Positions 7,282 to 22,939 of a DNA stretch of 44,338 nt are shown here, in pieces; positions within the stretch are counted from its first letter, which is position 1; the number at the start of each line of letters is the position of its first letter. Source of the DNA: Dehalococcoidia bacterium (GTDB taxonomy: Bacteria > Chloroflexota > Dehalococcoidia > GIF9 > AB-539-J10); contig JAUWQI010000009.1 of the NCBI GenBank assembly GCA_030611085.1, forward strand, positions 1-44,338, given 5' to 3'. Below the pieces are notes generated by a model, which was given only the letters and a program-made list of their open reading frames with translations, was not told where the DNA came from and made no database searches. Position numbers and translations under genes: made by a program.

Positions 7282-8472
7282 ATGGAAAAGAAGACTGTCG
7301 AGGATATAGAGGTTAAAGGAAAGAGAGTATTAGTTAGAGTTGACTTTAATGTTCCTCTTGATGCGGATACTGACGCTATTAGCAACGATAGTCGCATCCA
7401 AGCTTCATTACCTACTATTAAATATCTTGTTGACCATAAAGCTAAGGTAATTCTTTGCTCCCATCTAGGACGTCCTAAAGGCAGAGTAGTCGAAGGATTG
7501 CGAATGGCGCCAATAGCACAGCGGCTATCACAGCTCATAGGTTTGCCTGTCAGCACGATGCCAGGTTGCATTGGTCAAGAGGTAGAAAGGAAGGTAAAAG
7601 CGCTTAGAGAAGGAGACATATTGTTTTTAGAGAATGTGCGCTTTCATCCTGAAGAAGAGGCAAACGAGTTGCATTTTGCTCAAGAATTGGCTAAGCTAGC
7701 CGATGTCTATGTTAACGATGCCTTTAGTGCTTCCCACAGAGCTCATGCTTCTATTGTTGGGATAGTTAAATATCTGCCTGCAGTAGCTGGCTTTTTGATG
7801 GAGAAGGAATTGGAAACTATGAGTAGGCTCCTGAACAATACGGAGCATCCCTTCGCTTGTATGGTAGGTGGTGCCAAAGTGAGCGACAAAATATGTTTGG
7901 TGCAAAATATGCTAAAGAAGGTCGATTTTTTGCTCGTTGGTGGTGGCATGGCAGCCACCTTTTTGAAAGCACAAGGATGTGAAGTAGGACATTCTTTAGT
8001 GGAAGAAGATAAAGTGAGCTTGGCTAAGGATTTGCTCCGGGAGGCTGAGGAGTGGAAAGTACCGCTTTTGCTCCCAACTGATGTGGTTATGGCTGAGGAA
8101 ATTAAGGCTGGGGCTAAGACTTTGGTGGTGTCCACAAAGAACATACCACCCAATAGCTATATTGTGGATATCGGGCCTCAAACTATAGAGCTTTTCTGCA
8201 CCGAATTGAAGAAATGTCATACCATTATGTGGAACGGGCCTTTAGGAATTTGTGAAATACCTCAATTTGCTCAAGGAACCAAATCACTAGTTACTTTTTT
8301 AGCTGCTGTTAATGCTACCACTGTTATTGGTGGTGGCTCTACTTCTGAGACAGTCCAGGAAATGGGATTGGTTGATAAAATGACCCATGTCTCCACCGGT
8401 GGTGGTGCTAGTTTGAGATTTTTGGAAGGCACTGCCTTACCTGGAGTGGAAGTCCTGCCAGACAGAGAATAA
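7282..8472 (+). CDS. pgk: Phosphoglycerate kinase
   Basis: A 396-residue enzyme, the normal length, that transfers phosphate between 1,3-bisphosphoglycerate and ADP. The substrate-binding arginine/histidine motifs 'VDFNVPLD', 'SHLGRPKG' and 'NVRFHPEE' lie in the N-terminal domain. 'GGAKVSDK' and the nucleotide-binding 'GGGSTSETV' lie in the C-terminal domain. AGGAGAG precedes the ATG. It is 35 nt ahead of tpiA, so the two glycolytic/gluconeogenic genes are likely co-transcribed. Confidence 0.97.
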   Translation: MEKKTVEDIEVKGKRVLVRVDFNVPLDADTDAISNDSRIQASLPTIKYLVDHKAKVILCSHLGRPKGRVVEGLRMAPIAQRLSQLIGLPVSTMPGCIGQEVERKVKALREGDILFLENVRFHPEEEANELHFAQELAKLADVYVNDAFSASHRAHASIVGIVKYLPAVAGFLMEKELETMSRLLNNTEHPFACMVGGAKVSDKICLVQNMLKKVDFLLVGGGMAATFLKAQGCEVGHSLVEEDKVSLAKDLLREAEEWKVPLLLPTDVVMAEEIKAGAKTLVVSTKNIPPNSYIVDIGPQTIELFCTELKKCHTIMWNGPLGICEIPQFAQGTKSLVTFLAAVNATTVIGGGSTSETVQEMGLVDKMTHVSTGGGASLRFLEGTALPGVEVLPDRE

Positions 8473-8507
8473 AATTCAGAGATAAATTTGATGTTTGATT
8501 TTTAACG

Positions 8508-9275
8508 ATGCGCATTCCACTTATTGCTGGTAATTGGAAAATGAATACCACGGTCGCCGAGGCAACCGAGCTAGTTCATGACATGTTGGAAAAATTGGAC
8601 AAGATAGAAGGAGTGGACAGGATACTATGCCCACCATTTATTTCTCTGGCTGTGGTAGGCGAGTTGTTGAAGGGTTCATCTATCAAGCTTGGTGCTCAGA
8701 ACATGCATTTTGAAGCTAAGGGAGCTTATACCGGTGAAATATCCCCACTAATGCTCACCAGTCTTTGCGAATTTATCATCCTGGGACACTCTGAGCGACG
8801 ATGGTATTTCGGTGAAACTGACGAGATAGTTAGCAAGAAAGTAAAGGCAGCTCTCTCATCTGGGCTTAAGCCTATTTTGTGTGTTGGGGAAAGGCCTGAA
8901 GAGAATGAAGCTGGCAGGACTGAGGAGGTGGTTAGCAAGCAAATAAATTGCGGTTTAAGTGGCATAGCTTCCTGCCCTGACATAGTGATTGCCTATGAGC
9001 CGATATGGGCTATCGGCACAGGTAGGGCAGCTAGCGGCGAGGGAGCAGCAGCTACTATCAAATTTATCCGCACTTGTCTCGCCAGTCTATGGAACAAGGA
9101 TATAGCTCAAGGTTTGCGTATCCTTTACGGTGGCAGTGTTACCAGTAATAACATTACTGAGTTCGTTTCCCAACCAGAAATCGACGGTGCCCTGGTTGGT
9201 GGTGCTAGCCTCAAAGCTGAAGAATTCGTAAGCATTGTCAGTCAAACTGCAGCAATCAAACGCCAACCTGTTTAA
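8508..9275 (+). CDS. tpiA: Triosephosphate isomerase
   Basis: A 255-residue TIM barrel interconverting dihydroxyacetone phosphate and glyceraldehyde 3-phosphate. Catalytic residues are intact: Lys12 in 'GNWKMN', His in 'ILGHSERR', Glu in 'AYEPIWAIGTG', and the phosphate-binding 'LYGGSV'. It follows pgk and precedes miaA by only 5 nt. No strong ribosome binding site is visible before the ATG. Confidence 0.97.
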   Translation: MRIPLIAGNWKMNTTVAEATELVHDMLEKLDKIEGVDRILCPPFISLAVVGELLKGSSIKLGAQNMHFEAKGAYTGEISPLMLTSLCEFIILGHSERRWYFGETDEIVSKKVKAALSSGLKPILCVGERPEENEAGRTEEVVSKQINCGLSGIASCPDIVIAYEPIWAIGTGRAASGEGAAATIKFIRTCLASLWNKDIAQGLRILYGGSVTSNNITEFVSQPEIDGALVGGASLKAEEFVSIVSQTAAIKRQPV

Positions 9276-15280: not shown

Positions 15281-16249
15281 TTAGGCAGGTTTTTCTTTCG
15301 GTGGTTGTGGAGGTGCCGGGTTAACCAAAGCCTTGCCTATCGCTCCAGGGAAAGTTCTTACTACTTCCTCTATGGTCCATCGACCTGCGGATGTATATAT
15401 AGTTTTGTCAGGTATTGAAGCATCTGGGTAATGCTGAATTTGCCCCATGCCGCAGAAAAAGAGCTGACCATTTATATTAGCAGCAGCATCAGATGCCAGA
15501 TACGCTATTAATTTTCCCGCATCTCCTGGGTCACCATATACCTTCTTGCCAAGCTCATCCACTGGGAGTGTATTAGCCACTTTCTCGTCCAAACCATAAT
15601 ATGTAACTGCTAGCGTTCGTAGCTTGTCCTCCGGTATAGAAGAAGTCATTCTAGTCCACCCTGTAGGCATTACTGCGTTTGCTGTAATGCCATATCTACC
15701 CAGGTCTTTGGCTATGCACCGCGTAAAGGATATGATACCACCTTTGGCGGCAGAGTAATTCGCATTGCCTGCGGAAATACCTAAGGCAGCTCTGGAGGCG
15801 ATATTAATTATATGCCCACCCCGCTGCTCTCGCATCAAGGCGGCGGCATGACGGCAAGTATTGAACGTACCATAGAGGTGAACTTTCATCACCAAATCCC
15901 ATTCTTCTGGAGCCATGTTATACATCATACGATCCCTTAATACCCCAGCTACATTTACTAAAATATCTATCTTGCCAAAATTATCAACACAACTCTTGAT
16001 AATAGCCTCAGCGGAACTAAAAGTAGAGACATCGTTATAATTAACGGTTGCATTTACTCCTTTCTTTTTAATCTCCGCTACAGTTTCGTCAGCTGGAGTA
16101 GAGGTAGGTTCAGCACCAGCCAAAGTAACTCCTAAGTCATTCACTACTATATTAGCTCCTTCTTCCGCCAAAGCTAGGGCTATTTCCCTGCCAATTCCTC
16201 GACCAGCACCAGTTACCACCGCATTCTTACCCTTTAGTATTTCACTCAT
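15281..16249 (-). CDS. SDR-family (3R)-3-hydroxyacyl-CoA dehydrogenase-like protein
   Basis: A 322-residue short-chain dehydrogenase close to the dehydrogenase domain of peroxisomal multifunctional enzyme 2. The cofactor motif 'TGAGRGIG' is at residues 13-20, with 'NVAG' at about 99. The catalytic triad is Ser152, Tyr165 and Lys169 in 'NYSAAKGG'. 'VVNDLGV' suggests an NAD preference. It is longer than a minimal SDR (about 250) owing to an insertion near residue 215 and a C-terminal tail. It is the last gene of the reverse-strand acyl-CoA cluster and would oxidise the hydroxyacyl-CoA made by the neighbouring MaoC-type hydratase. Confidence 0.87.
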   Translation of the reverse strand: MSEILKGKNAVVTGAGRGIGREIALALAEEGANIVVNDLGVTLAGAEPTSTPADETVAEIKKKGVNATVNYNDVSTFSSAEAIIKSCVDNFGKIDILVNVAGVLRDRMMYNMAPEEWDLVMKVHLYGTFNTCRHAAALMREQRGGHIINIASRAALGISAGNANYSAAKGGIISFTRCIAKDLGRYGITANAVMPTGWTRMTSSIPEDKLRTLAVTYYGLDEKVANTLPVDELGKKVYGDPGDAGKLIAYLASDAAANINGQLFFCGMGQIQHYPDASIPDKTIYTSAGRWTIEEVVRTFPGAIGKALVNPAPPQPPKEKPA

Positions 16250-16282: not shown

Positions 16283-16753
16283 CTACCCTCGAGATAGGAG
16301 CGCAACAGTAGCATTACCTCGAGTTGTTACCTCGCTTTTTCCATTCTCAATCCAAATATCACAATCCACGCAATGTTCGTCACCTTCAACATACTTTTTG
16401 GTGACTTTCCCTTTGCACCACCAGGTTTCCCCTTCCTGAGGCTCAAACATGTCTTTCATTAAACGAGGATAATCCATAGCCCGAAACTGACAGGAGAATT
16501 TCTTTAAATTTCCTTGCTCTCCTATCCAATCACTCATTAATTGAACTAACCAGGCTCGCTTCAATTGCCCATGAACTATAGGCTTACCTACTCCTTGAGA
16601 ATCAGCAAAAGCGTCTTCATAGTGAAGGGGATTGAAATCTCCTGAGGCCCCAGCCCACTTGACCAGCATTTGCCGGCTAGCTACTTTAGGCAAAGGAGTT
16701 ACTTCACTTCTCTCTTCTACATCTTCCCAAAATAATTGTTTTTTCATTTTCAT
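16283..16753 (-). CDS. MaoC-like hot-dog dehydratase subunit (active-site bearing)
   Basis: A 156-residue hot-dog protein with the R-hydratase motif 'GASGDFNPLHYEDAFA' (catalytic Asp and His) and the following 'IVHGQL'. These enzymes hydrate trans-2-enoyl-CoA to the (3R)-hydroxyacyl-CoA. Its partner 28 nt upstream (16782-17258) keeps the fold but lacks the catalytic His. The pair therefore looks like the two halves of a double hot-dog hydratase, as in the actinobacterial ChsH1-ChsH2 complex of steroid degradation. GGAGGTAGG precedes two closely spaced ATGs, so the start may be two codons later. Confidence 0.85.
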   Translation of the reverse strand: MKMKKQLFWEDVEERSEVTPLPKVASRQMLVKWAGASGDFNPLHYEDAFADSQGVGKPIVHGQLKRAWLVQLMSDWIGEQGNLKKFSCQFRAMDYPRLMKDMFEPQEGETWWCKGKVTKKYVEGDEHCVDCDIWIENGKSEVTTRGNATVALLSRG

Positions 16754-16781: not shown

Positions 16782-17258
16782 TCATCGGTGAATCAAAGTT
16801 TGGTGTGCCTTAGCTACTATGTCCCCATTTTGATTGGTATAAGTGGTTTCTACAATAGATAAAATCATCTTGCCACTTTTAGTCTCACGCTCCTGAATGC
16901 TAGCTACTCGGGGCACGCTGGCCAAAGTGTCTCCAGCGCGCACTGGCTGAAAGAAATCAAATTCTATTCCACCATCAAGCACTCGACTATAACCAGCTTT
17001 AGTTATGGTATCTATCACCTCTTGCCTTAATTCTGAGAAGAAGGGCATAGCTCTTTTCCACTTAGTTGGCCAACCAAAAAAACCCGGAGGAGCTACAATA
17101 GAGCCATATCTTGAATTTCTGGCATATTCCTCATCCCAATAAAGTGGGTTTCGGTCACCTATGGCATCAGCAAATTTCTTAATGGCACCCTTCTCCACTT
17201 CTAATATCACAGTTTCGCCTGCCTTGCCTATAAGCTGAGTGGCTTCTTGTGGTAGCAT
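16782..17258 (-). CDS. FAS1-like/MaoC N-terminal hot-dog subunit (non-catalytic half)
   Basis: A 158-residue hot-dog protein of the FAS1-like dehydratase type. The region equivalent to the hydratase motif reads 'AIGDRNPLYWDEEYA', with Tyr where His is expected, so this subunit probably binds the CoA substrate while the neighbour supplies catalysis. ATG 17258 is preferred: GAGGAGGA lies 7 nt upstream and the domain begins with 'MLPQEATQLIGKAGE'. An upstream GTG at 17291 would add eleven residues unlike the family. It follows the thiolase gene and a 32-codon ORF in the same direction. Confidence 0.83.
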   Translation of the reverse strand: MLPQEATQLIGKAGETVILEVEKGAIKKFADAIGDRNPLYWDEEYARNSRYGSIVAPPGFFGWPTKWKRAMPFFSELRQEVIDTITKAGYSRVLDGGIEFDFFQPVRAGDTLASVPRVASIQERETKSGKMILSIVETTYTNQNGDIVAKAHQTLIHR

Positions 17259-17274
17259 TTGCAAATCCTCCTCT

Positions 17275-17373
17275 TCAGGCCATTCTAACACACAGTTGGC
17301 GAGGAAAGATAACGCCTTTTTCTACTCCCATAATCATAGCTTCGCCTATCTTATCTGTAACAGGTGTTATCAT
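17275..17373 (-). CDS. 32-residue ORF coupled to the thiolase gene by ATGA overlap
   Basis: The thiolase stop (17370-17372) overlaps an ATG (17371-17373) as ATGA on the reverse strand. From it runs a frame of 32 codons, starting 'MITPVTDKIGEAMIMGVEK' and ending 'LCVRMA'. Its TGA stop lies 2 nt upstream of the GAGGAGGA that drives the next gene, so ribosomes could pass through all three frames. The peptide has no membrane segment or known motif. It could be a real microprotein or a leftover of a longer gene. Confidence 0.4.
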   Translation of the reverse strand: MITPVTDKIGEAMIMGVEKGVIFPRQLCVRMA

Positions 17374-18581
17374 GGGGCACCATAAATAACAACTCCACAA
17401 ATAAACTTTCCTGGATGACCTCCCTGATTATGGCTTAATCCCAGGCGAACATTTTTTATCTGGCGAGAGGGCTCCTCGGCTTTCCCCTGAATTTGCTTGT
17501 ATATCTCATAAGTTTCGCGAGTTCCACTTGCCCCTATGGGATGCCCAAAAGACTTTAACCCTCCACTCACGTTAACTGGCATCTCTCCATCATGATAATA
17601 GGCTCTCTTGTCAGTGAATTCCTTCTTATATTTTCCATGTTCACAAAGAAAGAGAGATTCACTAGCTATAAGTTCGGCGATGGAGAAGCAGTCATGATTT
17701 TCTACCATATCGAGTTCCTTACGAGGGTCTTTTATTCCAGCTTCATCATAAGCTTGATGCGCTGCTGCTTCTGTAGCGAGCCAACTGGTGAAGTCAAAAT
17801 CTTCTCTCTCCTTAAACCAGCCAGGACTTGTTCCTACCCCCAATCCTTTAATGGTAACATAATCATCACGGTATCTCTTTGCTTCCTCTGCTGGAACTAA
17901 GATAGCTGCTGCAGCACCATCCGTTACACCACAACAATCATAAAGTCCCAAAGGCCAGGCGATCATAGGAGCTTTCAAGGCATCCTCTACTGTTATCTCT
18001 CTCCTTAAGTGAGCTCTGGGGTTTCTAACCCCATAATAATGGCTTTTTACATCTATTTCTGCTAGCATCCTTTTCCCATCTTCAGGGGAGAAACCATATT
18101 TAGCAAAGTAAGCTGTAGCTGCCATAGCATATCTTCCGGGACCAGTGCTAAAAGCTCCATATACAGGCTCCCACCTCCCGGGAAACATGGCTCCTAATCC
18201 ACCAAAACCTGTATCTTTAAGTTTCTCCACGCCGATTGCCAGCACTAAATCATAAGCTTTAGCGGCTATAGCATAAGTGGCTCCTCTTACAGCCTCTTGC
18301 CCTGAGCCGCAAGCATTCTCCACTCTGGTTACAGGAATAAATTGCGTTTGAAGACTTTGAGAAAGGAGCATCCCCGTAGGTAGTGCACCTTCTACTGTCT
18401 GAGAGCCCAGAAAGGTACCCATCCACGCTGCTTGAATATCTTTAATCTCTATTCCTGCATCCGCACAAGCCTCAGTAGTAGCCTCCCTTATCAGACCCTC
18501 TATGCCTGTATCCCACCTTTCGCCAAATTTGGAACACCCTGCTCCTACAACGGCAACTTTGTCCTTTATGCTCTCTCTCAT
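17370..18581 (-). CDS. SCP2-type thiolase, copy A
   Basis: A 403-residue thiolase of the SCP2/archaeal acetoacetyl-CoA thiolase type. The nucleophilic Cys91 is in 'VENACGSGQEA', with 'NHDCFSIAE' and 'GGLKSFGHPIGASGT' completing the active site, so it should be catalytically competent. It cleaves 3-oxoacyl-CoA or condenses two acyl-CoAs. The gene starts 13 nt after the HMGS-like/DUF35 gene, mirroring archaeal operons where thiolase, DUF35 and HMG-CoA synthase form one complex. A paralogue lies at 20314-21507. Substrate is unknown; the adjoining hydratase and dehydrogenase suggest the last step of a beta-oxidation-like sequence. Confidence 0.88.
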   Translation of the reverse strand: MRESIKDKVAVVGAGCSKFGERWDTGIEGLIREATTEACADAGIEIKDIQAAWMGTFLGSQTVEGALPTGMLLSQSLQTQFIPVTRVENACGSGQEAVRGATYAIAAKAYDLVLAIGVEKLKDTGFGGLGAMFPGRWEPVYGAFSTGPGRYAMAATAYFAKYGFSPEDGKRMLAEIDVKSHYYGVRNPRAHLRREITVEDALKAPMIAWPLGLYDCCGVTDGAAAAILVPAEEAKRYRDDYVTIKGLGVGTSPGWFKEREDFDFTSWLATEAAAHQAYDEAGIKDPRKELDMVENHDCFSIAELIASESLFLCEHGKYKKEFTDKRAYYHDGEMPVNVSGGLKSFGHPIGASGTRETYEIYKQIQGKAEEPSRQIKNVRLGLSHNQGGHPGKFICGVVIYGAP

Positions 18582-18594
18582 CTTATCCTCCTTT

Positions 18595-20013
18595 TTATTC
18601 CCTTACTGGTTTGCATTTCCAGAAGTAATTGTGAACTCCTAAGGCGTCATGGATTCTCCTGAAAGTTACCTCCATAGGCATCCCTACCTTTATATTATTC
18701 ACATCGCGATCCGTCATCTGGCTGAAGAACCTCCCTCCTCCCTCTAAATTAACGACACCCAGAACATTCGGTGGATCTACAACAGGAGCTCTTTCATCCA
18801 TGCTAAAAGTAAACAGAGTTCCTTTTCTATCTGAGAGAGGAATCTCTTCAAGAAATTCCTCAGGAGCCTGGCAGTACATACAAAACTGCTGCATAGGGAA
18901 TTGAGTCTTACCACATTTCTTACATTTATGCCCATGGAATCTAAACACCCACTGACGGTCTCTCCATAACTGAGGGAGAGAGGTCCTTGGTCTATAATCA
19001 GTTGTCTCGGCGAATTGCATAAGGCTTCTGAACTTGATATATTTCCCATAATTATCCAGCATGAGCTTGGATTCGAGATTCTTCTTTATACCTCTTCTAT
19101 CTTTTATTTTTTCTATCCCTTCGGTGACTCGGAGGACATGAGCATCGGCTCCATCCCCATAATTAGCCAATAAAATTCTATCCCCTGGTTTTGCCTCCTC
19201 AAGAGCCCCCACTAAAATCATGGGGGCAAAGGCCGTTCCTGTGTTGCCAAGCTGGTCAAAGAGAGGATTCTGAACTTGTGTCTTAGCATCCAGGCCAAGC
19301 CTCTTTGCCATATCACTGTGAAGTCTCGCATCAGGGGCATAGAAGGCTGCCTTAGCGAAATCCTTAGCGCTTAGATTATGGGCCTTTAGCAAAGCAGAAA
19401 CAGCTTTTTGGAAATGGGGTATATATCCTTCGTCTCGGATGAAACGATCCTCCCAGCTTCGGGTGGTTTTATCATATTCCATTCTCCACATGTCCACGAA
19501 CTCGCTGGTAAGATAATAACTCCCCTCGATTTCTACAGCTATCCCACCTTCTCCGATGAGGAAAGCGGCAGCACCGTCCCCGAAGAGGGGTTCCAAAGCT
19601 GAATTTGGAGGGGGAATGCGGCAATCGGAAGCTACCACTAAAACCTTCTTCGCTGAGCCAGCCTTTACCGCATCCAGGGCCATTCTAAGAGCAATAGTGC
19701 CAGACCTCAAAGAATCAGTAAGGTCAACAGCGATTATATCCTCACGTAGGTCAAGTGCAGCTGCCATTATACTGGCCGATTGCTTTTCCTTGAAAGGCGG
19801 CGTAGTAGAAGCAAAATATAGAGCATCTACAGAACTCTTTTCTATCCCTTTAAGGCAATTCCTTGCTGCCTCCACGCCCATAGTCATGCTATCTTCATCG
19901 ACATTAGCTATAGCTTTCTCTCCCTTTCCTCTCCCTCCCCAAACTTGATTGAGGATTTCTCTGCTCAGTCTATAAATAGGAATATGGGCACCATAAGAAA
20001 TTATTCCTTCCAT
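18595..20013 (-). CDS. HMG-CoA-synthase-like pseudoenzyme fused to DUF35, copy A
   Basis: A 472-residue fusion. Residues 1-310 have the thiolase-fold architecture of HMG-CoA synthase ('GIISYGAHIPIYRLSREI', 'EKAIANVDEDSMTM', 'GDGAAAFLIG', 'GNTGTAFAPMILVGALEEA'). Residues 350-472 are a DUF35 rubredoxin-like zinc ribbon (Cys364, Cys367, Cys378, Cys381) plus OB fold. Aligned by eye to archaeal HMG-CoA synthase recalled from memory, the catalytic Glu, Cys and His correspond to Thr70, Leu102 and Tyr225, so the classical reaction should be impossible. In archaea a separate DUF35 protein bridges thiolase and HMG-CoA synthase. Here the bridge is fused to the inactive partner, suggesting a scaffold or acyl-CoA channel for the thiolase encoded next. 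Confidence 0.85.
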   Translation of the reverse strand: MEGIISYGAHIPIYRLSREILNQVWGGRGKGEKAIANVDEDSMTMGVEAARNCLKGIEKSSVDALYFASTTPPFKEKQSASIMAAALDLREDIIAVDLTDSLRSGTIALRMALDAVKAGSAKKVLVVASDCRIPPPNSALEPLFGDGAAAFLIGEGGIAVEIEGSYYLTSEFVDMWRMEYDKTTRSWEDRFIRDEGYIPHFQKAVSALLKAHNLSAKDFAKAAFYAPDARLHSDMAKRLGLDAKTQVQNPLFDQLGNTGTAFAPMILVGALEEAKPGDRILLANYGDGADAHVLRVTEGIEKIKDRRGIKKNLESKLMLDNYGKYIKFRSLMQFAETTDYRPRTSLPQLWRDRQWVFRFHGHKCKKCGKTQFPMQQFCMYCQAPEEFLEEIPLSDRKGTLFTFSMDERAPVVDPPNVLGVVNLEGGGRFFSQMTDRDVNNIKVGMPMEVTFRRIHDALGVHNYFWKCKPVRE

Positions 20014-20300
20014 ACAACCCTCCTTTTTCTATTTTTAGATTCGCCAGAAGCTCTCTGCTATTCTCCTTTTTCCACTTGTTCTATGTTACCTTTGAGCTAT
20101 ATATTACTTTATCTTGCACTCCCCTATCAAGAATCAAGCTACAGCTTGCTCTTAAAAAGCTTAAGCATGATGTGGTATCTTTGGGAAACAAAAAAACGGC
20201 ATGCGATAGGCAAGACGGCCTTGCACTCCAAGAGTATATGACATTACTTACCTTGAGTGAAGGTCACTAAATAGACCTTCACTAGTGGCCATCAATGCTG
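20014..20300. repeat. Spacer between the two thiolase units, resembling 23158-23400
   Basis: This gap has no credible gene. It aligns by eye with 23158-23400: both contain GATGtgGTATCTT/GATGaaGTATCTT, then ATGcGATAGG/ATGtGATAGG, then GAAGGTCACTAAATAGACC/GAAGGGCATTAAACAGACC in the same order and similar spacing. It therefore seems to be a duplicated upstream region of the HMGS-like gene and may contain its promoter. Confidence 0.6.
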
Positions 20301-20313
20301 CACTCTTAAATCT

Positions 20314-21507
20314 TTAAGGAGCACCGATAATCGTTACGCCGCATTGGAATCTTCCCGGATGCCCCCCTTGATTATGGGCTAGCCCCAGTCGTACATTCTT
20401 AAGTTGCCTTGAGGGGTCTTCTGCCTTACCCTGAAACTGCTTGTAAAACTCGTAAACTTCGCGACCACCACTAGCCCCTATAGGATGACCAAAGGACTTC
20501 AATCCGCCACTGATATTGATAGGAATTTCGCCCTCTTGAGTAAAAACACCTGCATCAACATCTTCTTTAACTCGACCTCTCTCGGAAATCCCTGCTGACT
20601 CGGTAGCAATAGCTTCAGCAATAGAAAAGCAATCATGAAGCTCAGCCATATCCAATTCTTTGCGAGGATTCTTTATTCCTGCCATCTCATATGCTTGCTT
20701 ACAAGCTGCTTCTGTCTCTGGCCAAAATGTATAATCGTAATCCTCTTTCTGCTTGCCCCAACTGGGACCTACAGAAATCCCTGAACCCTTAATCGTTATA
20801 TAATCATCTCGGAAATTCTTGGCCATATCGGCACGACATAAAACTGCTGCCGAAGCTCCATCAGTTACTCCGCAACAGTCATATAAACCTAAAGGCCAAG
20901 CAATCATAGGAGCGTTTATCACTTGCTCCTCAGTGACTTCTATCCGTAAGTGAGCTTTAGGATTTCGGGCACCATTATGATGGCTCTTAACCGAAATCTT
21001 AGCCAGCATTCTTTTTCCTTCTTCGGGGCTCAGTCCATACTTGCTAAAATATCGAGTAGCAGCTAGTGCATAACGTCCAGGACCTGTGCCACCACCCACA
21101 TAAATGGGATGCCACTTGTCCGATTGCAACCTTAGAGTATGGAGCCCACCATAGCCTGTATCCTTCATTTTTTCCACCCCTACAGACAGGCATATATCAT
21201 ATACGCCTGCAGCTATGGCAAAGGCAGGTCCTCTTAAAGTCTCAGCTCCTGTGCCACAAGCGTTTTCTACGTGGGTTACTGGAATATAGTTTAACTTTAA
21301 AGGAGCGGCTAATGCAGCTCCAGTTACTCCGGATGCCATCGTCCCGAACCATGCTGCCTCGATATCCTTAATTTCCACTCCAGCATCCTCAAGAGCCTCA
21401 TAAGTTGCCTCTATAATTAAGTCATCAACATCTTTGTCCCAAAGTTCCCCAAACTGAGTGCAACCCATACCAATTATTGCTACTTTATCTTTGATAGTTC
21501 CTGGCAT
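20314..21507 (-). CDS. SCP2-type thiolase, copy B
   Basis: A 397-residue paralogue of the thiolase at 17370-18581, alike along its whole length. Cys84 in 'VENACGTGAETL', 'LHDCFSIAEAIATE' and 'GGLKSFGHPIGASGG' keep the active site intact. The clearest differences from copy A lie just before the nucleophile (residues 56-75), which lines the acyl pocket, so the two copies may prefer different acyl chains. It begins 10 nt after its own HMGS-like/DUF35 gene. Confidence 0.88.
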   Translation of the reverse strand: MPGTIKDKVAIIGMGCTQFGELWDKDVDDLIIEATYEALEDAGVEIKDIEAAWFGTMASGVTGAALAAPLKLNYIPVTHVENACGTGAETLRGPAFAIAAGVYDICLSVGVEKMKDTGYGGLHTLRLQSDKWHPIYVGGGTGPGRYALAATRYFSKYGLSPEEGKRMLAKISVKSHHNGARNPKAHLRIEVTEEQVINAPMIAWPLGLYDCCGVTDGASAAVLCRADMAKNFRDDYITIKGSGISVGPSWGKQKEDYDYTFWPETEAACKQAYEMAGIKNPRKELDMAELHDCFSIAEAIATESAGISERGRVKEDVDAGVFTQEGEIPINISGGLKSFGHPIGASGGREVYEFYKQFQGKAEDPSRQLKNVRLGLAHNQGGHPGRFQCGVTIIGAP

Positions 21508-21517
21508 TTTATCCTCC

Positions 21518-22939
21518 TTAACATCTTATTGGTCTGGATTTCCAGAAGTAGTTTACAAATCCACCTTGTTCATGGAATTTTCTAAAAGTAAATTCCATTC
21601 GTATTCCAACTCCAAGTTTATCTAACACTTTGTCTGTCATTTGGCCGTAGTACCTTCCGCCACCATCGAGATTGATTACGCTCAAGACATTAGGCAAATC
21701 TATAACTCCAGCTCCTCGCTCATCTATACTGTATGTAAAGAGTTCCCCTTGTTTATCTGACACTCTTACATAATCAAACTCATCCTTTGCCTGACACCAC
21801 ATACAAATTCTCTGGGGAGGGAGTTGGACATGACCGCATTTCCTACACCGGGTGCCATTCCCTCTTATTATTGCTTTGCTCTCCCGCCATATTATATTTA
21901 AGGAACCCTCCAGGGGGTGCATGCGATTTACCTCCCACTCCATGAGATCACGGTAATGGATATACCTCCCATAATTAGGAAGCATGAGTTTTGAATCAAG
22001 GTGCCTCTTTATCCCACGTTTGTCTTTAACCCCTTCTATTCCTGCAGTCGTTTTCAATGCATAAGCATCAGCTCCATCACTGAAATTGACAGTGAGGATC
22101 TTGTCGCCCGGTTTGGCTTCTTCGAGTGCTCCTACCAACATCATTGGTACAAAAGCAGAGCCAGTATTGCCAACTTTATCGAACAAAGGATTCTGTACCT
22201 GAGTTTTATCAAGTTTCAGAGCTCTCGCTGATGCAGCATGCTCTCTGGCATTTGAGCCATAAAAAGCAACCTTTGCGAAATCTGCTAAGTTTACATTATA
22301 CTTTTTTAACAATCCAGATACAGCATCTTCAAGTTGAGGTGTATATATTGCCTCCTTGATAAATCTATCTTCCCATGTCTGGACATAAGTGTCGCTTCTT
22401 CTTCTCCAAACACTAAGATTTTCACTTGAAGTCATATAACTTCCTTCTATCTCAGCGATGATGTCTGAATCTCCAATTAAAAATGCGGCAGCGCCGTCTC
22501 CCAAAACTGATTCAAATGCTGAATCGGGGGGAGGCACTCGACAATCAGAAGCGACTACCAGCACTTTCTTTGCTGAGCCGGCATTAACTGCATCTAGTGC
22601 TGCTTGTAGTGCTATTGTTCCCCCTCGGAGGGAATTTGCGGAGTCAAGTGTCATTATATCATTCCGGAGATCGAGAGCGGCGGCTACTAAGCTTGCGTTT
22701 TGTTTTTCTGTATAAGGCGCAGTCGTTGAAGCAAAGTACACTCTATCAATCAAATTTCGGTCCATGTTACCTATACAATCAAGCGCAGCTTCCACTGCCA
22801 TGGTTATACTATCCTCATCGACATTAGCCACAGCTTTTTCTCCAGGTCTCTCGCGTCCTCCCCAGACTTTAGCAAGCTCAGCTTGGCTTAATCTATAAAT
22901 GGGTATATAGGCGCCGTATGAAACTATTCCTGCTGTCAT
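21518..22939 (-). CDS. HMG-CoA-synthase-like pseudoenzyme fused to DUF35, copy B
   Basis: A 473-residue paralogue of the fusion at 18595-20013, with the same order: inactive HMG-CoA-synthase-like domain (1-310), linker, then DUF35 with zinc ligands in 'CRKCGHVQLPPQRICMWC'. The positions expected to hold catalytic Glu, Cys and His carry Thr72, Leu104 and Tyr227, the same replacements as copy A. That two diverged copies share the triple change argues that the loss is old and selected rather than decay. 'GNTGSAFVPMMLVGALEEAKPGD' and 'GDGAAAFLIG' show that the fold is kept. It opens the reverse-strand operon. Confidence 0.85.
   Translation of the reverse strand: MTAGIVSYGAYIPIYRLSQAELAKVWGGRERPGEKAVANVDEDSITMAVEAALDCIGNMDRNLIDRVYFASTTAPYTEKQNASLVAAALDLRNDIMTLDSANSLRGGTIALQAALDAVNAGSAKKVLVVASDCRVPPPDSAFESVLGDGAAAFLIGDSDIIAEIEGSYMTSSENLSVWRRRSDTYVQTWEDRFIKEAIYTPQLEDAVSGLLKKYNVNLADFAKVAFYGSNAREHAASARALKLDKTQVQNPLFDKVGNTGSAFVPMMLVGALEEAKPGDKILTVNFSDGADAYALKTTAGIEGVKDKRGIKRHLDSKLMLPNYGRYIHYRDLMEWEVNRMHPLEGSLNIIWRESKAIIRGNGTRCRKCGHVQLPPQRICMWCQAKDEFDYVRVSDKQGELFTYSIDERGAGVIDLPNVLSVINLDGGGRYYGQMTDKVLDKLGVGIRMEFTFRKFHEQGGFVNYFWKSRPIRC

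Follow-up and report, generated by a model that had tools for sequence, protein, structure and literature searches.

A locus in a Dehalococcoidia bacterium raises the question of what a protein can be doing when it keeps the fold of an enzyme and has lost every catalytic residue of it. The window analyzed here comprises positions 1 to 44,338 of the forward strand of contig JAUWQI010000009.1 (assembly GCA_030611085.1). On its minus strand lie two genes, fusions A and B, each of which encodes a module with the fold of 3-hydroxy-3-methylglutaryl-CoA (HMG-CoA) synthase joined to a C-terminal DUF35 domain, and each of which is followed by the gene of an SCP2-type thiolase. We consider it likely that the fusions are catalytically dead partners composed of an HMG-CoA-synthase-like (HMGCS) module and DUF35, acting as a non-catalytic subunit of the adjacent thiolase in R-specific beta-oxidation. 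Four facts stand behind this proposal: none of the three catalytic residues is left, the fold persists, an intact thiolase accompanies the fusions in different phyla, and the dead domain is under purifying selection. The features concerned are the following, where Mt marks the numbering of the archaeal HMG-CoA synthase.

21518-22939, minus strand: fusion B, 473 amino acids (open reading frame listing, Pfam and alignment)
22939-21938, minus strand: pseudo-HMG-CoA-synthase domain of fusion B, residues ~1-334
residues ~346-473 of fusion B, minus strand: Zn-ribbon/OB-fold DUF35 domain
22724-22726, minus strand: codon of Thr72 of fusion B, at the catalytic Glu position (alignment)
22628-22630, minus strand: codon of Leu104 of fusion B, at the catalytic Cys position (alignment)
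22259-22261, minus strand: codon of Tyr227 of fusion B, at the catalytic His position (alignment)
20314-21507, minus strand: thiolase B, SCP2-type, 397 amino acids, with ENACGTG, HDCFS and FGHPIG intact, 10 nt past fusion B
18595-20013, minus strand: fusion A, 472 amino acids (open reading frame listing, Pfam, AlphaFold2 and Foldseek)
20013-19015, minus strand: pseudo-HMG-CoA-synthase domain of fusion A, residues 1-333
residues 345-472 of fusion A, minus strand: DUF35 domain, with zinc cysteines 364/367/378/381
19804-19806, minus strand: codon of Thr70 of fusion A, at the position of the catalytic Mt Glu82 (alignment)
19708-19710, minus strand: codon of Leu102 of fusion A, at the position of the catalytic Mt Cys114 (alignment)
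19618-19620, minus strand: codon of Arg132 of fusion A, a residue specific to the pseudo-family (conservation comparison)
19339-19341, minus strand: codon of Tyr225 of fusion A, at the position of the catalytic Mt His238 (alignment)
17370-18581, minus strand: thiolase A, SCP2-type, 403 amino acids, with Cys91, His296-Asp297-Cys298 and His347, 13 nt past fusion A

These open reading frames, the fusion to DUF35 and the gaps of 13 and 10 nt that separate fusions A and B from their thiolases are exactly as the original prediction had described them. The same holds for its claim of retained signatures of the HMG-CoA-synthase fold: a phmmer search of the PDB places chain I of 6ESQ, an archaeal HMG-CoA synthase, at the top for both proteins (E 2.4e-42 for A, 8.4e-40 for B), the AlphaFold2 model of copy A, computed with 81 aligned sequences, combines an HMG-CoA-synthase fold with DUF35 at a mean pLDDT of 95.5 and a pTM of 0.94, and Foldseek returns 6ESQ chain I first for that model (TM 0.92 by target, rmsd 1.3), with PhlA-type chains close behind. 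As for the loss of the catalytic triad, which had been read by eye, a MAFFT alignment upholds it: opposite Mt Glu82, Cys114 and His238, fusion A has Thr70, Leu102 and Tyr225 and fusion B has Thr72, Leu104 and Tyr227, and the separate HMG-CoA synthases of Chloroflexota, used as a positive control, carry Glu/Cys/His (E/C/H) in those columns. The numbering of Mt Cys114 and Glu82 used here matches that of PMC6392133. In the DUF35 part, PF01796 passes its cut-off in fusion A and PF12172 in fusion B, and the four zinc cysteines (364/367/378/381 in A) are conserved at 99-100% across the family.

It might be supposed that the alignment is off and that the fusions are working HMG-CoA synthases of a bacterial mevalonate-type pathway, since for one NCBIfam model of that enzyme, NF003274, they score narrowly below the cut-off of 244 bits (242.8 for A, 237.9 for B). 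Against TIGR00748, however, they reach about half of the cut-off (191.0 and 181.4 against 353.35), and by Pfam and NCBIfam both are relatives of HMG-CoA synthase with a C-terminal DUF35 that stay under every HMG-CoA synthase cut-off; they have the fold that membership of the family requires, and neither its triad nor scores at its curated cut-offs. Moreover, separate homologues have E/C/H in the triad columns, and a Hecatellales archaeon carries, besides a dead fusion, an E/C/H enzyme as a protein of its own. We reject this explanation, which is already contradicted and to which we give hardly any credence. In the source genome, which is 83% complete, no protein was found at the archaeal HMG-CoA synthase cut-off. 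In that same 83% complete genome no FabH was found at the family cut-off either, and two other genomes of the class are without a FabH match.

How general this state is was examined in a survey of homologues. A pattern scan of genome contigs gave 312 relatives, the best 80 of which were used, and searches with hidden Markov models added relatives from 301 Chloroflexota genomes, from 198 genomes of the phylum of a Desulfobacterales bin and from 200 of the phylum of a Hecatellales archaeon. In the joint alignment, which covers several bacterial phyla and archaea, 154 of the 155 full-length fusions are without any of E, C and H, and 40 unfused sequences are E/C/H. The original prediction had proposed to look among homologues for Leu at the Cys position; that position holds L/I/V/T/Q across the family, while T/V/D/N stand at the Glu position and Y/P/N/S/D/A at the His position, so that the old triad is absent and its places vary. 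The sole fused protein with E/C/H (L172:1483-2958(+)) belongs to an archaeal genome, lies inside the active clade and represents an independent fusion of an active enzyme to DUF35; being fused and intact at once, it indicates that the triad is not destroyed by the joining of DUF35. The converse, which points the same way, is seen in the Desulfobacterota survey, where four unfused triad-less genes stand each beside a thiolase gene and a DUF35 or Zn-ribbon gene.

Two further fusion-thiolase pairs are encoded in the source genome itself, at C15:2959 (C) and C17:30596 (D); their fusions are 49% and 46% identical to A and read T/L/Y and T/L/P, respectively, at the triad positions. Several relatives resemble the window in that a single locus holds two neighboring fusions (L084, L053, L052, L036, L047, L049 and L060), and such loci may be the product of repeated tandem duplication or ancient paralogue clusters. 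Elsewhere in the source genome (L009:7926-13011(-), on G000:C25) two tandem pairs of a thiolase and a separate DUF35 gene occur without an HMGCS-like module and adjoin another thiolase (7926-9221). Literature searches, whose coverage left most subscription journals outside, found no description of the fusion family and turned up nothing further on a pseudoenzyme scaffold for a thiolase; the triad-less fusion family is large and apparently undescribed.

The original prediction had argued that the replacements shared by two diverged copies speak for selection, and this argument did not hold. In a tree built with the three triad columns excluded, 84 fusions, joined by a single truncated fragment of their type, form one fully supported clade, and paralogues A to D of the source genome belong to different subclades, between which other species are placed. 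Since A and B lie inside one ancient triad-less clade, their T/L/Y state is inherited and not convergent, and the two copies share one ancestral state. When the tree is rooted with FabH, the triad-less forms, PhlA among them, all group together (88/96) within the active enzymes, and without PhlA the support is 98/98; a single ancestral loss of the triad suffices, the inclusion of PhlA having moderate support. The case for selection depends instead on retention across phyla and on the ratio of non-synonymous to synonymous substitution rates (dN/dS), whose median over 24 closely related pairs is 0.092 in the pseudo-domain and 0.057 in DUF35. Values of about 0.09 in the pseudo-domain mean that the dead domain is maintained by purifying selection.

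This bears directly on the idea that the pseudo-domain is a decaying remnant, kept through its fusion to DUF35 alone. It is true that the loss of catalysis is complete and that the old catalytic positions drift, but dN/dS is low in the pseudo-domain itself, 133 non-redundant homologues are spread over several phyla, the confidence of the AlphaFold2 model is high throughout, and unfused triad-less genes, too, have been retained, with genes for a thiolase and for a DUF35 or Zn-ribbon protein next to them. We reject decay as extremely improbable.

If the domain is maintained, it might have acquired a new catalysis, such as that of a non-covalent acyltransferase, a decarboxylase or a hydrolase, by way of Arg132, Thr70 or Cys131. 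Most near-invariant positions of the pseudo-domain are common to active HMG-CoA synthases; Arg132, however, is present in 98.5% of the non-redundant pseudo-domains, whereas triad-intact HMG-CoA synthases have Ala in 93%, and Asp146 (96%) and Glu188 (94%) are likewise specific to the family. These residues, together with the purifying selection, are what such a proposal can invoke. Yet the old catalytic positions are variable, the partner thiolases hold a full catalytic set of their own, and when a replacement catalytic residue was sought, conservation of 90% or more was reached by no Cys, His or Ser anywhere in the pseudo-domain, so that no replacement nucleophile is fixed. The conserved Arg, Asp and Glu would suit an interface or the binding of a ligand equally well, and on sequence grounds the family-specific charged residues could serve in either way. 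A new catalysis in the pseudo-domain thus seems unlikely to us.

The reading of the fusions as dead partners of a thiolase draws support from the genes around them. A thiolase neighbor on the same strand accompanies 146 of the 154 triad-less fusions, in 143 cases directly downstream, where the gap has a median of 15 nt. Not one of the 129 complete neighboring thiolases has lost Cys, His-Asp-Cys or His. Pairwise distances between fusions correlate with those between their thiolases (r = 0.84, with a maximum of 0.154 in 2000 permutations), a correlation that will come in part from shared species history and linkage. The original prediction had claimed intact Cys and His residues for both downstream thiolases of the window and had taken the synthase domain to be a retained pseudoenzyme that scaffolds or gates the thiolase. 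The residues are indeed present (Cys, HDC and His); the pseudoenzyme reading and the partnership with the thiolase are strongly supported by the lack of the triad in 154 of 155 fusions, by the counts just given and by the correlation, and a scaffold role of the pseudo-domain is probable, while gating would be a possible role. Open reading frames joining a fusion straight to a thiolase were sought among the surveyed relatives and none was found; the long reading frames considered as such joins were rejected, as they proved to be fusions with a short-chain dehydrogenase/reductase (SDR) and an SCP2 domain.

What kind of reaction these thiolases perform can be approached from their motifs. Both partner thiolases have the nucleophilic Cys, the HDCF motif and the GHP His of SCP2-type thiolases. 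HDCF is the motif of SCP-2 thiolases, while the Sal and Ltp2 aldolases have YDCY or YDHF and in CtSal Gly replaces the nucleophilic Cys (PMC12329534). The combination of DUF35, an SCP2-type thiolase fold and MaoC hydratases recalls ChsH1-ChsH2-Ltp2 and Shy-Sal (PMC12329534) and brings to mind a Sal/Ltp2-type retro-aldolase, such as takes part in the degradation of steroid side chains. The window thiolases, however, have HDCF in place of the Tyr motifs, together with Cys91, so that they are most likely thiolases and not aldolases, and the dehydrogenase needed for a thiolytic route is present in the operon; we have rejected this alternative as very improbable.

The rest of the operon lies downstream of thiolase A, and the order of transcription on the minus strand is fusion B, thiolase B, fusion A, thiolase A, two MaoC genes and an SDR gene:

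16782-17291, minus strand: MaoC/HadA-like hydratase subunit, active-site motif DRNPLY (Pfam)
16283-16753, minus strand: MaoC/HadB-like (R)-specific enoyl-CoA hydratase, motif GDFNPLH (Pfam and PDB matches)
15281-16249, minus strand: SDR, (3R)-hydroxyacyl-CoA dehydrogenase-like (Pfam; best PDB match 2ET6)

The best PDB match of the SDR is the (3R)-hydroxyacyl-CoA dehydrogenase 2ET6 (E 1.4e-77), with 17beta-HSD4/MFE-2 among the next, and the MaoC protein with the hydratase-2 motif GDFNPLH has HadB and R-specific hydratases among its PDB matches. By similarity, the (R)-hydratase, the (3R)-hydroxyacyl-CoA dehydrogenase and the thiolase on one strand are an R-specific beta-oxidation set. Copy C adjoins genes that resemble, in a by-eye reading of their sequences, those of enoyl-CoA hydratase and 3-hydroxyacyl-CoA dehydrogenase. 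Desulfobacterota even have single chains of ~910 amino acids with the order pseudo-HMGCS-DUF35-SDR-SCP2 (L197:2293-5037(+), L199:797-3532(-), L198, L200, L201, L203 and L205). In L197 the SDR and SCP2 parts behind pseudo-HMGCS-DUF35 are confirmed by Pfam and a thiolase lies directly downstream; L199 has 911 amino acids, and over 265 columns its SDR part, of the (3R)-hydroxyacyl-CoA-dehydrogenase type, shares 40% identity with the SDR of the window.

This context also weighs on a further alternative, in which the complex is a CoA-independent acyltransferase of the Friedel-Crafts type like PhlABC and not a CoA-thiolase of beta-oxidation. The three-part architecture with a triad-less HMGCS-like subunit is the same, and among triad-less relatives of known structure none is nearer than the PhlA-like proteins. 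The thiolase, on the other hand, is far nearer to other enzymes: the PDB matches of thiolase A include the archaeal acetoacetyl-CoA thiolase (6ESQ chain A, second best by sequence) at E 1.8e-53 and BbsB at 5.3e-46, against 4.4e-18 for PhlC. It carries the SCP-2 thiolase motif HDCF, and the neighboring genes are the hydratases and dehydrogenases named above, for the window and for copy C, and not polyketide genes. A PhlABC-like chemistry is accordingly improbable.

Some further observations concern the layout of the operon. AGGAGG occurs a few bases before the ATG of all four fusion and thiolase genes (18587, 20019, 21513 and 22948), and it is its placement alone that is informative, since its count in the whole window is not above chance. 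In the MaoC protein with DRNPLY, Tyr replaces the active-site His, and the product of this gene is, as judged from sequence, probably a non-catalytic subunit; in the MaoC pair, too, a live subunit thus seems to stand beside a dead one. The gene was called from GTG, and with AGGAGG at 17267-17272 an ATG start near 17258 is likely. Thiolase B and fusion A are 300 nt apart, and in this interval lies a perfect 10-bp inverted repeat at 20256-20283 (AGTGAAGGTC, an 8-nt loop, GACCTTCACT), with no T run after it. The fusion B/thiolase B and fusion A/thiolase A pairs may be separate transcription units.

A mechanism can be proposed for fusions that act as dead partners. By analogy with 6ESQ and 5M3K, the pseudo-domain would dimerize and DUF35 would bridge the pseudo-HMGCS dimer to a thiolase dimer; the dead pocket would stay as one side of a composite cavity shared with the thiolase, and all chemistry would take place on Cys/His/Cys of the thiolase. 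For the three-part architecture the analogy with 6ESQ and PhlABC is sound, and the best reading of the pseudo-domain by that analogy is that it assembles the thiolase cavity and perhaps walls it. The complex would carry out the C-C-cleaving step of an R-specific beta-oxidation module made of the MaoC pair, the (3R)-hydroxyacyl-CoA dehydrogenase and the thiolase, a role that gene content suggests by analogy with peroxisomal MFE-2 and SCPx. The triad would have been lost in the ancestor of the family, possibly before the split from PhlA, and paralogues A to D would have arisen later.

Several points count against this proposal. The evidence for a heteromer here consists of gene linkage and the correlation of distances, and the gene neighborhood gives neither substrate nor pathway direction; dN/dS marks constraint and says nothing of which function is constrained; a single loss including PhlA has moderate support (88/96), from a bootstrap that had not settled; the Asn of KAS-III-type enzymes (Mt N270) is kept in A and B, within GNTG, though in no more than 43% of the family; and no result separates the roles that the dead pocket might have, namely scaffold only, cavity wall, CoA binding or gating. 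Among these we tentatively raise, as a possibility that we would not yet favor, that the pocket is a substrate chamber holding a branched or polycyclic 3-ketoacyl-CoA by its bulky acyl or CoA part while it passes from the MFE-2-type dehydrogenase to the SCP2 thiolase; if this were true, bacteria and archaea would have a beta-oxidation metabolon built on an inactivated enzyme of the mevalonate pathway.

Whatever the role of the pocket, it appears that a mevalonate-pathway enzyme has been disabled and reused as a structural partner over many lineages, with a near-perfect split in which the dead form is fused and the live form is separate. Annotation of these fusions as HMG-CoA synthase would wrongly imply mevalonate synthesis. 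The family also offers a ready system for studying what a pseudoenzyme gives to its catalytic partner.

Several known systems share parts of this architecture. The archaeal complex of thiolase, DUF35 and HMG-CoA synthase (6ESQ, 6ET9) has the same three modules and folds, but its synthase has Glu82, Cys114 and His238 and makes HMG-CoA, whereas here the triad is gone and DUF35 is fused. The Sal-Shy and Ltp2-ChsH2 aldolases (9MYR, 6OK1) resemble the fusion-thiolase pairs in that their thiolase fold binds a DUF35 which is itself part of a further protein of the pathway, and in the MaoC-type hydratases of their pathway; they differ in using Tyr-based motifs, in the missing nucleophilic Cys of CtSal and in having no HMGCS-like module. 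BbsAB, the benzoylsuccinyl-CoA thiolase (7PXP), is a degradative combination of DUF35 and thiolase, and both of its modules match ours by sequence; to our knowledge it has no HMGCS-like module, which is consistent with the BbsAB subunits matched here. Peroxisomal MFE-2 and SCPx share the R-specific hydratase, the (3R)-hydroxyacyl-CoA dehydrogenase and the SCP2-type thiolase, and the Desulfobacterota homologues add the SCP2 domain; we know of no pseudo-HMGCS or DUF35 module in MFE-2 or SCPx.

The closest comparison is with PhlABC of Pseudomonas protegens (5M3K, 5MG5) and the related CsATase (9SKH) and MucABC (9VBO). Like the proteins of the window, PhlABC has a triad-less HMGCS-like module, a DUF35 with the four zinc cysteines and a thiolase-fold partner with Cys and His. 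PhlA has Gly115 and Cys83 in place of Cys and Glu; acyl transfer is performed by residues of PhlC only, the cavity is lined by all three subunits, and activity requires the co-expression of all three (PMC6392133). PhlA had also been termed an inactive member of the thiolase superfamily, in a work that noted fusions of DUF35 to proteins of this superfamily (PMC2954200). The pseudoenzyme concept of the original prediction is therefore not new, since it has in PhlA an experimentally studied precedent (PMC6392133). Unlike in PhlABC, DUF35 is fused here, the triad positions read T/L/Y instead of the C/G/Q of PhlA (with Gln at the His position), the thiolase is of the SCP2/archaeal type with HDCF, and the gene context is that of beta-oxidation and not of phloroglucinol or reutericyclin synthesis. 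A triad-less HMGCS-like subunit was thus already known; what is new is a fused and numerous branch, present in several bacterial phyla and some archaea and in a catabolic-looking context. PhlA, which belongs to antibiotic synthesis, had been the single well-studied case, and a family with a probable role in catabolism now joins it.

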